Source: Dyadobacter fermentans
GTDB taxonomy: Bacteria > Bacteroidota > Bacteroidia > Cytophagales > Spirosomataceae
Assembly (NCBI RefSeq): GCF_019924045.1
Contig: NZ_JAHXBN010000043.1
Span: 1 to 50,773, forward strand
DNA: 50,773 nt
Reading direction: 5' to 3'
Shown in pieces: positions 24,074 through 28,154 of the stretch. Every line of letters begins with the position of its first letter. Position 1 is the first letter of the stretch. The position numbers were made by a program, and so were the translations under genes. A model generated the notes under the pieces. It saw only the letters and a program-made list of their open reading frames with translations. It did not search any database and had not been told where the DNA came from.

Positions 24074-24105
24074 ACTTCGGCTTTCGGCAGTCGGCTTTCA
24101 GACTT
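24074..24105 (+). repeat. Short GC-rich repeat after the deacetylase stop
   Basis: The bases after the stop codon read ACTTCGGCTTTCGGCAGTCG and on to GGCTTTC. A related copy in reverse orientation lies at 24822-24848 directly after the lpdA stop. Both follow their gene's stop in the same sense. Confidence 0.55.
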
Positions 24106-24145: not shown

Positions 24146-24745
24146 TTAATCGTTGTTCAATTCTTCCCAAATACGTTGTAGTTCTTCAACATCGCCGAGG
24201 TCCTTATGCCGCGCAGTTGCTTTCTTTTCTGTGATTAAATCGCGCAAATGAAGTACTCGGAAGGGTACACCGTTATAATCAGCTACCAGTGCCCTTTCGT
24301 AGCATGCATCAAAGTCTGTCTCGGCGAAAGCTTTCAATGCATGTCCCAAATCCAGTTCGAAACCTGATTTTCCAAAACGCACGGACGTCCAGCCGAAAAT
24401 AAGCGGCATTGTTCTTAAAAGCTCAGCACCTACGACATCATTTTCGAGTAAGGCACGAACAAATGCTTCCGTATTTCCGTAGGTATTTCCGATCCACAAA
24501 TCCATATCCAATGTGGTGCGGATATGACCGTGAACGACCCCGGCCATGCCTCCTACCAAAAGGTATCGGACCTGATGCTGGTTTAAACTTTTCAAAAGTT
24601 GCAAAACGTCCTCGCTGCTAATGTCCATCGAATGCTTGTTTCTGTTTCTGGGATTCGAACGGTATAGCTTGTCTGCAACACCATTCAAGCGAATGAATGC
24701 TTCCAGATTCTCGGAATGTTGCTTGGTTAATGTATTCGCAGACAT
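24146..24745 (-). CDS. Nucleotidyltransferase-like protein (AbiEii/DUF6036 type)
   Basis: From ATG 24745 the product is 199 residues. The core (from MDISSEDVLQLLKSL, about residue 40) has the glycine motif LLVGGMAGVVHG and the aspartates RTTLDMDLWIG of the nucleotidyltransferase superfamily, then VRFGKSGFELDLGH and LHLRDLITEKKATARHKDLGD, seen in AbiEii-like and related minimal nucleotidyltransferases. Targets of these proteins are RNA, proteins or unknown. A start at 24628 would give only the recognisable domain. The frame to 24781 is rejected because it runs into the lpdA terminator. No antitoxin-like partner is adjacent. Confidence 0.7.
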   Translation of the reverse strand: MSANTLTKQHSENLEAFIRLNGVADKLYRSNPRNRNKHSMDISSEDVLQLLKSLNQHQVRYLLVGGMAGVVHGHIRTTLDMDLWIGNTYGNTEAFVRALLENDVVGAELLRTMPLIFGWTSVRFGKSGFELDLGHALKAFAETDFDACYERALVADYNGVPFRVLHLRDLITEKKATARHKDLGDVEELQRIWEELNND

Positions 24746-24778
24746 AGGAAGTTGAGCAGTATTTTGAGTAAAAATAAA

Positions 24779-24806
24779 CAATGCCCGGAATAACTCCCGG
24801 GCATTG
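24779..24806 (-). terminator. Intrinsic terminator of lpdA
   Basis: A perfect 10-bp stem (24779-24788 with 24797-24806, CAATGCCCGG) has an 8-nt loop. The minus strand continues into a T-rich run (TTTATTTTTA). Confidence 0.85.
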
Positions 24807-24821
24807 CTATAATCAATATTC

Positions 24822-24848
24822 CGACAGCCGACTGCCGACTGCCGAAGT
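24822..24848 (-). repeat. Short GC-rich repeat after the lpdA stop
   Basis: Read on the minus strand this segment begins GACTTCGGCAGTCGGCAGTC, directly after the lpdA stop codon. It is related to the 24074-24105 segment and contains the unit GGCAGTC twice. Confidence 0.55.
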
Positions 24849-24849
24849 C

Positions 24850-26247
24850 TTACAAATCAATCGCTTCACCGTAAGCCGCCTCAGTTGCGCCTTTCAACGC
24901 CTCCGACATGGTTGGGTGCGGGTGTACAGAGCGCATGATCTCATGCGATGTAGTTTCGAGCTTGCGTGCTACTACTACCTCGGCGATCATTTCGGTTACG
25001 TTCGCGCCGATCATGTGGGCTCCGAGGAACTCGCCGTATTTCGCGTCGAAGATTACTTTTACGAAACCGTCGGTAACACCGGCCCCTACCGCTTTACCAG
25101 ACGCTTTGAACGGGAACTTACCTACTTTGATATCGTAACCAGCCTCTTTCGCTTTTTTCTCGGTGAAACCTACCGATGCGATTTCAGGCTGGCAGTAAGT
25201 ACATCCAGGAATGTTGCCGTAATCCAATGCTTCGGTTTTGTGACCTGCGATTTTCTCGGCGCAGATGATACCTTCGGCAGTTGCTACGTGTGCCAAAGCC
25301 TGACCAGGCGTACAGTCGCCGATCGCGTAGAATCCCGGAACGTTGGTTTCGTACCATTCGTTAACCACGATTTTACCTTTATCGGTTTTGATGCCTGTTT
25401 CTTCCAGACCGATGTTTTCGATATTCGCAACGATGCCTGCTGCTGAAAGCACTACATCTACTTCGAAAGTTTTTTCGCCTTCCGGTGTTTTAACCGTCAC
25501 TTTGCAGCCTTTGCCGCTCGTATCTACTTTCTCAACCGAAGAGTTTACCAAAGTTTCGATACCGATTTTCTTGTATTGCTTCGCGATTTCTTTTGAAATC
25601 TCTTCGTCTTCAACCGGAACCAGGTTAGGGAGGAATTCCACTACGGTAACCTTGGTTCCCATTGAGTTATAAACGTACGCAAACTCCATTCCGATCGCGC
25701 CTGAGCCGATTACCAGCATAGAAGCCGGCTGCTTTTCGAGGCTCATCGCCTTGCGGTATTCGATGATCTTCTGTCCGTCGAGCTTAATGTTCGGCAACTC
25801 GCGAGCGCGTGCGCCTGTTGCGATGATCACCCCTTTTGAAGCAGTGTAATCTACTTTTTTGCCATCCTTGTCAGTTACTTCAACCGTTTTCTGGCCTTTC
25901 ACTTTACCGGCACCCATGATGACGTCGATCTTGTTCTTTTTCATCAGGAACGACACCCCTTTGCTCATGGAGTCGGCCACGCCGCGGCTGCGTTTGATCA
26001 CCGCACCGAAATCAGCCGAAGATTCGCTTACATTAATACCGTAATCTTTTGAATGCTTGATGTACTCGAATACCTGAGCACTTTTCAGCAGCGCTTTTGT
26101 TGGGATACAGCCCCAGTTAAGGCAAATTCCTCCTAAACTTTCTTTTTCAACAATAGCAACTTTAAGTCCTAATTGGGAAGCACGAATGGCTGCGGGATAA
26201 CCCCCGGGGCCGCTACCAATTACAATCACATCATATGTTTGAGCCAT
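24850..26247 (-). CDS. lpdA: Dihydrolipoyl dehydrogenase (E3)
   Basis: The 465-residue flavoprotein reoxidises the dihydrolipoyl groups of 2-oxoacid dehydrogenases and glycine cleavage, reducing NAD+. It has the FAD motif GSGPGG (residues 11-16), the redox-active disulfide C42-LNWG-C47, a second dinucleotide fold near VIGSGAIGMEFA (about residue 178), and the catalytic histidine in SVHPHPTMSEA near the C-terminus. Length is as expected for the family. It is a single gene with a -7 box at 26301-26294 and a terminator at 24779-24806. Confidence 0.97.
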   Translation of the reverse strand: MAQTYDVIVIGSGPGGYPAAIRASQLGLKVAIVEKESLGGICLNWGCIPTKALLKSAQVFEYIKHSKDYGINVSESSADFGAVIKRSRGVADSMSKGVSFLMKKNKIDVIMGAGKVKGQKTVEVTDKDGKKVDYTASKGVIIATGARARELPNIKLDGQKIIEYRKAMSLEKQPASMLVIGSGAIGMEFAYVYNSMGTKVTVVEFLPNLVPVEDEEISKEIAKQYKKIGIETLVNSSVEKVDTSGKGCKVTVKTPEGEKTFEVDVVLSAAGIVANIENIGLEETGIKTDKGKIVVNEWYETNVPGFYAIGDCTPGQALAHVATAEGIICAEKIAGHKTEALDYGNIPGCTYCQPEIASVGFTEKKAKEAGYDIKVGKFPFKASGKAVGAGVTDGFVKVIFDAKYGEFLGAHMIGANVTEMIAEVVVARKLETTSHEIMRSVHPHPTMSEALKGATEAAYGEAIDL

Positions 26248-26293
26248 TTTCCGGTATTTTTATTGTACGAAATGGGTTGACAAAATTTTGACG

Positions 26294-26301
26294 CAAAGGT
26301 A
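26294..26301 (-). promoter_or_regulatory. -7 box (TACCTTTG) of lpdA
   Basis: On the minus strand TACCTTTG matches TAnnTTTG, 46 nt before the lpdA start codon. The -33 region that should follow lies inside the left repeat array, and no TTTG is seen there. Confidence 0.6.
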
Positions 26302-26310
26302 ATAATTATC

Positions 26311-26417
26311 GTCAGAAATTGGTCAGGAATTAGTCAGGTCTGGTCGGATGTTGTCAGGTGTGGTCGGGAATTAGCCAAGTGGGGTTAGAAAATAGTCAGG
26401 TGTAGCCAGGAAGTCAT
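26311..26417 (-). repeat. Left degenerate repeat array, about 10.4-bp period
   Basis: Units starting GTCAGG or variants begin at 26311, 26322, 26333, 26343, 26353, 26363, 26374, 26384, 26395, 26405 and 26413. The spacing alternates between 10 and 11 bases (mean about 10.4 up to 26405). Read on the minus strand each unit ends CCTGAC, so the array is inverted relative to the right one. It abuts the lpdA promoter. Confidence 0.85.
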
Positions 26418-26498
26418 TTGTTTTGAAGCTGATAAGGTTATTACAAGTTGTTACCAAAGGGAGATTCTGGCGTATCAATTTGCTAACAAACGGGCTGC

Positions 26499-26861
26499 AT
26501 GATGAAACTGGAAGAACTGCAAGTATACCAGCTGGCAATGGTGATTGGCGACGAAATATGGCGAATAGTAGACGATTGGAGCTATTTTGTGAAAGATGCA
26601 TTTGGCAAACAACTGATCCGCGCTGCCGACTCTATCGCTGCCAACATCGCCGAGGGCTTTGGAAGATACCATTATAAAGAGAATCTGAACTTCTGCTACT
26701 ATTCTAGGGGTTCTTTAAGGGAAACAGTAACCTGGCTTACCAAAGCATTGAACAGGAATCTGATTTCTAAGGAAAAATTCACAGAATTGAAGCAACTTTG
26801 TGAGTTGTTATCCATTAAACTTAACAACTACATCAATACAATAGGCAACGGCTTGCGGTGA
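26499..26861 (+). CDS. Four-helix-bundle protein, S23/IVS family
   Basis: The 120-residue protein matches the S23-type four-helix-bundle family, first known from intervening sequences of Leptospira 23S rRNA genes. Signature stretches are LEELQVYQLAMVIGDEIWRI (helix 1), FGKQLIRAADSIAANIAEGF (helix 2), YYSRGSLRETVTWLTKA (helix 3) and a final helix to NYINTIGNGLR. DGR accessory protein Avd belongs to the same fold, but no reverse transcriptase is here. ATG 26499 or 26502 can both start it. The gene lies between lpdA and prfB, and inverted arrays of roughly 10-bp repeats frame it on both sides. Biochemical role unknown. Confidence 0.9.
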   Translation: MMKLEELQVYQLAMVIGDEIWRIVDDWSYFVKDAFGKQLIRAADSIAANIAEGFGRYHYKENLNFCYYSRGSLRETVTWLTKALNRNLISKEKFTELKQLCELLSIKLNNYINTIGNGLR

Positions 26862-26880
26862 TTCAAGCAGGAAATAGTCA

Positions 26881-27038
26881 CAACAAATGACCACACCTGA
26901 CAAATCATGACGACTCATGACAACCCATGACTACTCATGACAATTCATGACGACTCATGACAACCCATGACTACTCATGACAATTCATGACCAATCATGA
27001 CCACTCTTGAACACTCTTGACCACCCCTGACCAAAACC
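26881..27038 (+). repeat. Right tandem array, exact 10-bp period
   Basis: Fifteen consecutive 10-bp units, each ending in TGA and mostly fitting CNACTCATGA, run from 26881 to about 27030, followed by a decayed unit. The 40-bp block 26911-26950 is repeated exactly at 26951-26990. The outer units carry CCTGAC as in the left array; the inner ones carry the palindrome TCATGA. The array ends about 40 bases before prfB. Confidence 0.95.
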
Positions 27039-27079
27039 TAACAGCGAAGTATTTTTTTAACTTAAATTCAAAAAATTCA

Positions 27080-28154
27080 ATGACTGCAGAGCAATTGAAA
27101 GACTTGAAAGCCCGTGTAGAGGCTTTGGGGAGGTATCTTTGACTACGCTAACCGGAAACAACAGCTAGGACAACTCGAACAGCAGACTGTTCAGCCGGAA
27201 TTCTGGAACGACTCTACCCGCGCGGAAAAGGTCATGAAGGAGATCCGGGGTTTGAAATTCTGGACCAATGGTTACGAGGAACTCGCGCGCCTGCGCGACG
27301 ACCTGGACACGATCTGGGAATTTTACGAAGCCGACGAAGCCACCGAAGAAGAGGTGGACGAGGAAGGCAAAAAACTCGCCGACAAACTGGATGAAATAGA
27401 GTTCAGGAAAATGATGGGCGAAGAAGGCGACGAACTGCCTGCCGTGATCGAGATCAATGCAGGAGCGGGTGGTACCGAGTCGCAGGACTGGGCTTCGATG
27501 CTCATGCGGATGTATATCATGTGGGCAGAGAAGAATGGTTACAAGGTACGTCAGGTGGATTTGCAGGATGGCGATGTGGCGGGAGTAAAATCCGTGACCC
27601 TCGAAATCGACGGCGAATATGCCTATGGTAACCTGAAATCGGAGAATGGCGTGCACCGCCTCGTCCGCATTTCGCCATTCGATTCGAATGCACGCCGGCA
27701 TACGTCATTCACCTCCGTGTACGTGTACCCGCTCGCGGATGACAACATCGAAATCGAGGTGAACATGGCCGACATTACCTGGGACACCTACCGCTCGGGC
27801 GGCGCCGGTGGACAGAACGTCAACAAGGTGGAAACCGCGGTACGTTTGCACCACAAGCCATCAGGCATTATCATCGCCTGCCAGCAGGAACGTTCGCAGC
27901 TGATGAACAAAGAGGTAGCGATCCGCTTGCTGAAATCGCGTCTTTACCAGATCGAGCTCGAAAAGCGCAACTCGGCCCGAGCCGAAGTGGAGGCTTCGAA
28001 ACGCAAGATCGAATGGGGCTCGCAAATCCGCAGCTACGTCCTCGACGACCGCCGCGTAAAAGACCACCGCACGGATTACCAGACTTCAAATACCGAAGCG
28101 GTATTGAATGGTGATATCAACGCGTTTATCAAGGCGTATTTGATGGAAGCATAA
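27080..28154 (+). CDS. prfB: Peptide chain release factor 2, made by programmed +1 frameshift
   Basis: The gene is two frames joined by a +1 shift: 27080-27139 (20 codons), skip T 27140, then 27141-28154, giving about 357 residues. The first frame ends GRYL followed by TGA; the second resumes [13 protein letters not shown]2 releases peptides at UGA and UAA. The second part has the stop-codon recognition tripeptide SPF in [13 protein letters not shown] and the peptidyl-hydrolysis GGQ in [16 protein letters not shown]. The internal UGA lets RF2 limit its own synthesis. A terminator follows at 28165. Confidence 0.95.
27128..27143 (+). promoter_or_regulatory. RF2 programmed frameshift signal
   Basis: GGGAGG (27128-27133) acts as internal Shine-Dalgarno, three bases before the slippery CTT and the in-frame TGA followed by C (CTTTGAC, 27137-27143). 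This is the classical prfB shift site. Confidence 0.93.

Follow-up and report, generated by a model that had tools for sequence, protein, structure and literature searches.

Between the core genes lpdA and prfB of Dyadobacter fermentans lies a gene for a four-helix-bundle protein of the S23 type, framed by two arrays of short tandem repeats that face each other in inverted sense. The locus raises the question of whether the gene and the arrays belong together and, if they do, what the protein has to do with the repeats. To our knowledge no function is accepted for the S23 family outside DGRs, and we know of no accepted cause of short heptamer arrays; a tie between S23 lineage and repeat unit opens both questions to test, in that it predicts a ligand for the protein and a maker or reader for the repeats. 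The reading favored here, at a probability slightly better than one half, is that a dispersed family of inverted hairpin arrays has S23 as its partner, with the framed gene as the family's protein-coding master copy.

The S23 locus and its arrays

The window, i.e. the whole stretch of 50,773 nucleotides analyzed (contig NZ_JAHXBN010000043.1), contains the features collected in Table 1. The first-pass annotation placed an S23-type gene between lpdA and prfB, and profile searches bear this out: the product matches PF05635 with E 4.6e-29 (101.2 bits, curated cut-off 33.8) and TIGR02436, "four helix bundle protein", with 98.7 bits (cut-off 24). The mirror sense of the arrays, GTCAG-type units to the left and CATGAC-type units to the right, is likewise confirmed by the sequence, by TRF and by inverted matches between the two sides, e.g. 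a perfect one of 15 nt (100%) and one of 26 nt at 81%. In TRF the left array, of period 11/21, has a best score of 88, and the right array, of period 10/20/40, scores 137-188; these are the top scores in the window, where the next array scores 50; a repeat search finds 12 copies of the right unit in register at a spacing of 10 bp.

Table 1. Features of the lpdA-prfB interval and of the neighboring heptamer-framed gene (window positions)
Feature	Position	Strand	Description	Basis
lpdA	24850..26247	-	left core-gene neighbor, outside the unit	synteny
Left array	26311..26412	-	10/11-bp units GTCAGGNNNN; minus strand reads CCTGAC; + strand G-rich	sequence, TRF
Leader	26413..26498	+	left array to S23 start	sequence
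S23 gene	26499..26861	+	S23 / 23S rRNA-intervening-sequence-type four-helix-bundle protein, 120 aa	PF05635, TIGR02436
Right array	26880..27033	+	10-bp units ending CATGAC/CCTGAC; higher-order period 20/40; + strand C-rich	TRF, repeat search
prfB	27080..28154	+	right core-gene neighbor, outside the unit	synteny
Heptamer arms	24076-24099 and 24821-24845		GGCAGTC/GGCTGTC type, inverted	
DUF6036 gene	24146-24781	-	nucleotidyltransferase gene between the heptamer arms	

Framing was measured by a flank score, which compares both flanks of a gene for inverted similarity relative to dinucleotide shuffles, with z>4 counted as framed; the S23 gene of the window reaches z 8.2, where 142 control ORFs average 0.11. 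Since by eye the prfB ATG lies at 27080, the right array ends 46 bp ahead of that gene, close to the 40 bases first estimated. In frame in prfB is a TGA at 27140-27142 that follows CTT (27137-27142; read by eye), which we take to be the known RF2 programmed frameshift site. Of the original description of the locus as a cassette, the arrays and the gene order stand, with two corrections: an 86-bp leader precedes S23, and arrays of this kind are not special to the S23 gene. A partly similar leader is seen by eye in other S23 copies between lpdA and prfB. An Rfam search of 26200-27200 gave no RNA family at E <= 0.1.

A second gene of the window, encoding a DUF6036 protein, also lies between inverted arms, in this case heptamers. 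Its flank score was z 6.1 and 9.0 in two runs, and a rerun of the control set had it as one of just two ORFs exceeding z 4. A DUF6036 match is found in 15 of 20 relatives' stretches, in at least two of them as a fragment only, with none in the other five; similar heptamer arrays are seen by eye past the lpdA stop in many of the 20. The DUF6036 gene is a possible second cargo of arrays.

The S23 protein

The AlphaFold2 model of the window S23 protein (pLDDT 93.8) has four helices. Foldseek ranks 2gsc first (TM 0.89), 2rld second and Avd third; among solved S23 proteins the nearest are 2gsc, public since 2006, by both sequence and fold, and 2rld by fold. The match to Avd (4dwl, 8ub7) is one of structure, with TM about 0.73-0.82, Foldseek E 0.008-0.24 and an identity of 7-8%; the Avd fold has been solved as part of an RNA-protein complex. 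Short matches to designed TPR proteins in the sequence search were taken as chance. At E <= 0.001 Pfam gives PF05635 alone, with no HUH/Y1 transposase; the Pfam and TIGR profiles match the protein to no nuclease family, and no nuclease, recombinase or reverse transcriptase was found in the unit formed by S23 and its arrays. The gene sits between lpdA and prfB and not in the 23S rRNA gene, the place of the founding members. Passages of PMC10053308 report S23 genes in 23S rRNA and liken PF05635 to Avd, a figure legend of PMC10910872 names a 23S rRNA IVP domain, and a phage table in PMC5524665 includes four helix bundle proteins.

Presence and absence in the lpdA-prfB gap

lpdA adjoins prfB in all 48 genomes of the genus. 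S23 occupies the gap in 21 of them and is absent in 27, so that the proposed comparison among relatives does yield empty sites. TGAC arrays stand on both sides in 19 of the 21 filled gaps; in the other two (G002 and G035) a different 10-bp unit, TTCGG-type to the left and CCGAAC to the right, is seen by eye on both sides, with automatic flank scores of z 2.9 and 4.8. A TGAC chain of at least three units occurs in none of the 27 gaps that lack S23, which are about 172-465 bp long. The claim that gene and arrays form one unit is upheld: both are present in 21 of 48 gaps, two of these with the other unit as read by eye, and neither is present in 27. The S23 gene is broken or stop-bearing in four filled gaps (G012, G013, G038 and G042).

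Compared by eye, filled and empty gaps differ in that the middle of the gap is replaced: the filled gaps lack a segment, resembling the prfB promoter, that is common to the empty gaps examined, and no target duplication is seen, the mark expected of a MITE or composite transposon along with fixed terminal inverted repeats. On a tree built from pieces of lpdA and prfB the filled state requires 13 changes, at least 9 of them with good branch support, and its clustering barely exceeds that of shuffled labels. Turnover at the home site is rapid, either through insertion and loss or through the gap being exchanged as a whole. Several empty gaps (L104, L109, L110, L111, L113) have by eye a different palindrome, of GTCACCCTGAGCGNAGTCGAAGGG type with its complement, and a similar palindrome is seen by eye in place of the arrays in genome G009 at the solo site L036 described below.

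Framing of S23 genes elsewhere

The first-pass annotation also asked for a test of whether S23 genes lie near short-period repeats more often than random genes do, and such an enrichment holds in the genus and beyond it. Genus S23 loci exceed z>4 in 68 of 107 cases and z>6 in 48, compared with 2 and 1 of the 142 control ORFs, all of which come from the window's own genome (window and C9:1-160000). A draw from the Bacteroidota gave z>4 at 10 of 30 S23 loci; some alignments above this threshold, a few of them in the Bacteroidota draw, cover coding sequence and not a clear array. With a Calothrix S23 query 80 loci were found, five of them too short, and 57 of the remaining 75 are framed, against 3 of 76 control ORFs from the same, named loci. 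By phylum labels read off the records, the framed share is 35/39 in Cyanobacteria, 13/25 in Alphaproteobacteria, 3/4 in Chloroflexota and 6/7 in others. The Calothrix query was picked after its arms had been seen, so that its set is biased toward relatives of a framed gene, and many loci are orthologs, so that the framing counts are not independent events. Loci that do not pass z>4 number 39/107 in the genus, 20/30 in the phylum draw and 18/75 in the Calothrix-query set. Framing extends to plasmids, where four of six S23 loci fetched (of 10 matches) pass z>4, the Calothrix one being also in the Calothrix-query set. Polarity is nearly uniform: of 117 loci that exceed z>5, 110 have the G-rich arm 5' of the gene.

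Dispersed array pairs

A search of the whole 8-Mb genome of the window with the three-unit pattern TCATGACN3TCATGACN3TCATGAC, allowing up to 3 mismatches, gave 106 overlapping matches, and the reversed pattern gave none. The stretches read for clusters were the window, 32 regions picked for matches and 160 kb picked irrespective of matches. They hold 41 TGAC clusters: 31 pairs in the order seen at S23, one in the opposite order and nine with one arm only. Loops range from 12 to 531 bp in length, with a median of 37 bp, and only one of the 31 loops has an ORF of at least 80 aa, the S23 gene itself. It had been argued at the outset that gene and arrays would not be a unit if the arrays occurred equally often without any S23 gene; half of that is found, since nearly all array pairs read in the window's own genome carry no S23, and these are solo copies.

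Arm similarity is no greater within a site than between sites (0.418 versus 0.446, p 0.98, for the 19 of 31 pairs tested), which argues for a common unit and polarity and not for a history of copying between arms; palindromic growth by arm-to-arm copying is accordingly unsupported in these 19 pairs. Promoter arrays, in which the last unit would serve as a -33 box, are rejected because 29 of the 31 pairs are flanked by convergent or tandem genes.

At one solo site, L036, between convergent genes, the arrays were compared in eight genomes, the window's own and seven relatives having both neighbors (eleven more without the second neighbor were left out), with 10-bp arrays scored by unit chains and 8-bp arrays by eye. 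The window's genome (G000) has a long 10-bp pair of 15+9 units and G031 a short one; in G044 and G016 8-bp units lie outside a 10-bp pair, more of them in G016; G026 and G043 have an 8-bp pair, G009 a palindrome and G028 nearly nothing. Solo pairs are interchangeable at L036, since both array family and length differ among the eight genomes. In G016, directly past the stop codon (L323), 10-bp TGAC units lie by eye within an inverted pair of the 8-bp TGAATGAN unit, a nesting which suggests that arrays of one family can enter the loops of another.

The dispersed pairs bear on an alternative in which S23 is an RNA-binding protein acting on hairpins in untranslated transcript ends to affect stability, termination or processing; the arrays at its own gene would then serve autoregulation, and the dispersed arrays would be targets held in place by selection and not by self-spread. 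The neighbors of the 31 pairs are convergent in nine cases and divergent in two, against a background of 25 and 30, and all seven array pairs tested fold as RNA hairpins (z -4.0 to -13.7), as such a network would have it; the Avd fold, solved in complex with RNA, is in keeping with it, as are arms that are not mutual copies, expected of independently selected sites. However, the range at L036 from almost nothing to 24 units, with a change of family among eight genomes, and the scattered home unit with its many supported changes are fast for a conserved regulon, and a regulatory network is considered unlikely. The master-copy reading is preferred to it.

Array units and S23 lineages

The array unit goes with the S23 lineage, being 10, 8 or mostly 7 bp long, with mostly heptamers at the flanks of cyanobacterial S23 genes. 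S23 identity and arm similarity (whole arms) are correlated in Mantel tests within the genus (r 0.87, n 58), across phyla (r 0.39, n 52) and in Cyanobacteria (r 0.48, n 32), each with p 0.0005; with cut arms instead, r is 0.69 in the genus and 0.27 in the Calothrix-query set. Common descent of the linked unit contributes to these correlations.

The numbers of arrays across whole genomes were compared after removal of matches at S23 loci (0-9 per genome). The median number of TGAC matches is 41 for the 21 genomes that have a prfB-linked S23, compared with 2 for the 27 genomes lacking it (p 6.6e-5); with the S23-locus matches kept p is 2.6e-5, and the tree-based tests weaken after removal. Counts of the 8-bp unit do not differ by prfB-linked S23 (p 0.46) and do differ by presence of the 8-bp S23 group (61 vs 5, p 0.003), a group of 21 genomes assigned by Pfam match pattern and not by tree, which is also weakly tied to TGAC counts (p 0.046); five of the 21, with a variant unit, score 0-1, and one divergent member scores 0. 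Independent tree pairs, which are few, give for the 10-bp unit 1.4-2.5 pairs in the same direction and none opposite (median p 0.25-1), and for the 8-bp unit 5.4 to 0-0.2 at cut-offs 20 and 30 (median p 0.06) and no signal at cut-off 1 (1.2 to 1.1).

There are exceptions: G044 (342 TGAC matches) and G026 (97) are without a prfB-linked S23, through either recent gene loss or another source of arrays, and G035 has a prfB-linked S23 and no TGAC match. Arrays of the switched CGAAC unit are most numerous in G002 (11), with 3-7 in G018, G029, G033, G034 and G020, 1-2 in four genomes and none in G035; the reversed control gave one match, in G022. The unit switched at the S23 locus is therefore echoed genome-wide in one of the two switched genomes, G002, and not in G035.

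Two heptamers were counted with S23-locus matches included (e.g. 6 of 11 in the Calothrix genome). GGGTGT arrays occur in all four genomes whose S23 has that unit, with 11, 44, 196 and 342 matches, where the reversed pattern gives 2, 2, 83 and 25, and eight other genomes have one match in total. GGCAGT arrays occur in both genomes where they were expected, unexpectedly in Okeania (12 matches), and in none of nine others, four of which have 205, 71, 7 and 3 matches to the reversed pattern. This reversed control, TGACGGN x3, is abundant in the genomes of loci L282 and L242 (205 and 71) and probably marks another heptamer family. Overall, the genome-wide number of a unit tends to go with the S23 of that unit, though there are exceptions and the phylogenetic support is weak.

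These correlations confront a second alternative, that slippage at intergenic hairpins gives rise to array pairs, which are tolerated, and that S23 genes are separate small mobile passengers that enter the loops, as in 23S rRNA helices, and are functionally unrelated to the unit. Many arrays have no S23, S23 genes are known from 23S rRNA (PMC10053308), the DUF6036 gene is found between heptamer arms in the same way, and the phylogeny-corrected count tests are weak, all of which such passengers would allow. Random insertion does not, however, predict units specific to the S23 lineage, as the genus Mantel correlation indicates, nor units that switched on both sides at once, as seen by eye in G002 and G035, nor unit-specific counts across whole genomes, nor that the S23 copy alone among 31 loops carries a gene. 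Tolerated passengers are accordingly regarded as improbable, more so than a regulatory role.

A model for S23 and its arrays

The master-copy reading is built upon what is directly observed: arrays frame S23 genes with a nearly uniform polarity and are dispersed, their units differ by S23 lineage, unit counts tend to go with the matching S23, the home site is filled in some genomes and empty in others, and solo pairs interchange at one site. An array pair would be written 5'-(G-rich unit)n - loop - (complementary C-rich unit)n-3' and would fold into a long hairpin, either as RNA or as extruded DNA. The loop of most copies would be a few dozen bases, and that of the master copy would carry the S23 gene. 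S23, an Avd-like four-helix bundle that is expected to be a pentamer, would recognize the unit of its own family, the 10-bp TGAC unit here and the 8-bp TGAATGAN unit or a 7-bp unit elsewhere, and by such recognition the array family may be kept, amplified or helped to spread, with the chemistry presumably performed by replication or recombination enzymes of the host. The binding, the amplification, the spread and the enzymes are parts of the account that we infer from the arrangement. A wider proposal, held tentatively and at rather less than even odds, is that S23 proteins across bacterial phyla, each specific for its unit, act as partners of short-tandem-repeat hairpins, cyanobacterial STRR-type heptamers included, which they would create, maintain or spread without a transposase or reverse transcriptase of their own. 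If true, this would be a repeat-dispersal system without a recognizable transposase, nuclease or reverse transcriptase.

A retroelement, in which S23 would act like the Avd of a DGR and pass array RNA to a reverse transcriptase for placement at new sites, is very improbable: the fold match to Avd and the likening of PF05635 to Avd in passages of PMC10053308 favor it, but there is no RT-sized frame between lpdA and prfB, PF00078 (the one profile searched) is undetected in 20 of 48 genus genomes including the array-rich G044, G018 and G026, which argues against a dedicated reverse transcriptase, and the array-poor G014, G022 and G036 have 3-6 PF00078 matches.

Relation to known systems

RAYT proteins are Y1/HUH transposases. 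The REP/REPIN-RAYT systems are like the window unit in having a gene flanked by inverted short repeats together with solo copies dispersed between genes; they differ in that S23 encodes a four-helix bundle and its arrays are phased, with units of 7, 8 or 10 bp in place of 20-40-bp palindromes. The likeness is one of layout and not of membership, because the defining transposase is absent here.

Among the full-text matches listed, which leave most subscription journals and bioRxiv outside their scope, no paper links S23 or IVP genes to short arrays. The STRR heptamers of Cyanobacteria and the GGGAATC arrays of Xanthomonas resemble the S23 flanks as short G-rich units that are often found as inverted pairs, although STRRs are dispersed tandem units of 7 bp and the window unit is 10 bp. 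For X. campestris PMC4692102 reports 70 cases of inverted heptamer pairs, and "S23" and "helix bundle" have no occurrence in the main text of that source; the portion of PMC4679880 on TAACTGA repeats describes them without a link to S23. If S23 and arrays are partners, the X. campestris gene XCC0516, whose product is 2gsc, is predicted to lie between GGGAATC-type arms. Array pairs are also like P6b of the Nostoc tRNA-Leu intron, a stem formed from complementary heptamers, with the difference that the latter lies inside an intron; its origins are stated as not known in PMC4476775, in whose main text "S23" has no occurrence.

On the protein side, the Avd of DGRs shares the fold of the window S23 and differs in its distant sequence and in the reverse transcriptase that the window unit lacks. 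The S23 proteins of rRNA inserts are like the window S23 in sequence family, in fold and in the position of the gene in a potential hairpin loop, and the window gene differs from them in lying outside rRNA, framed by tandem arrays.
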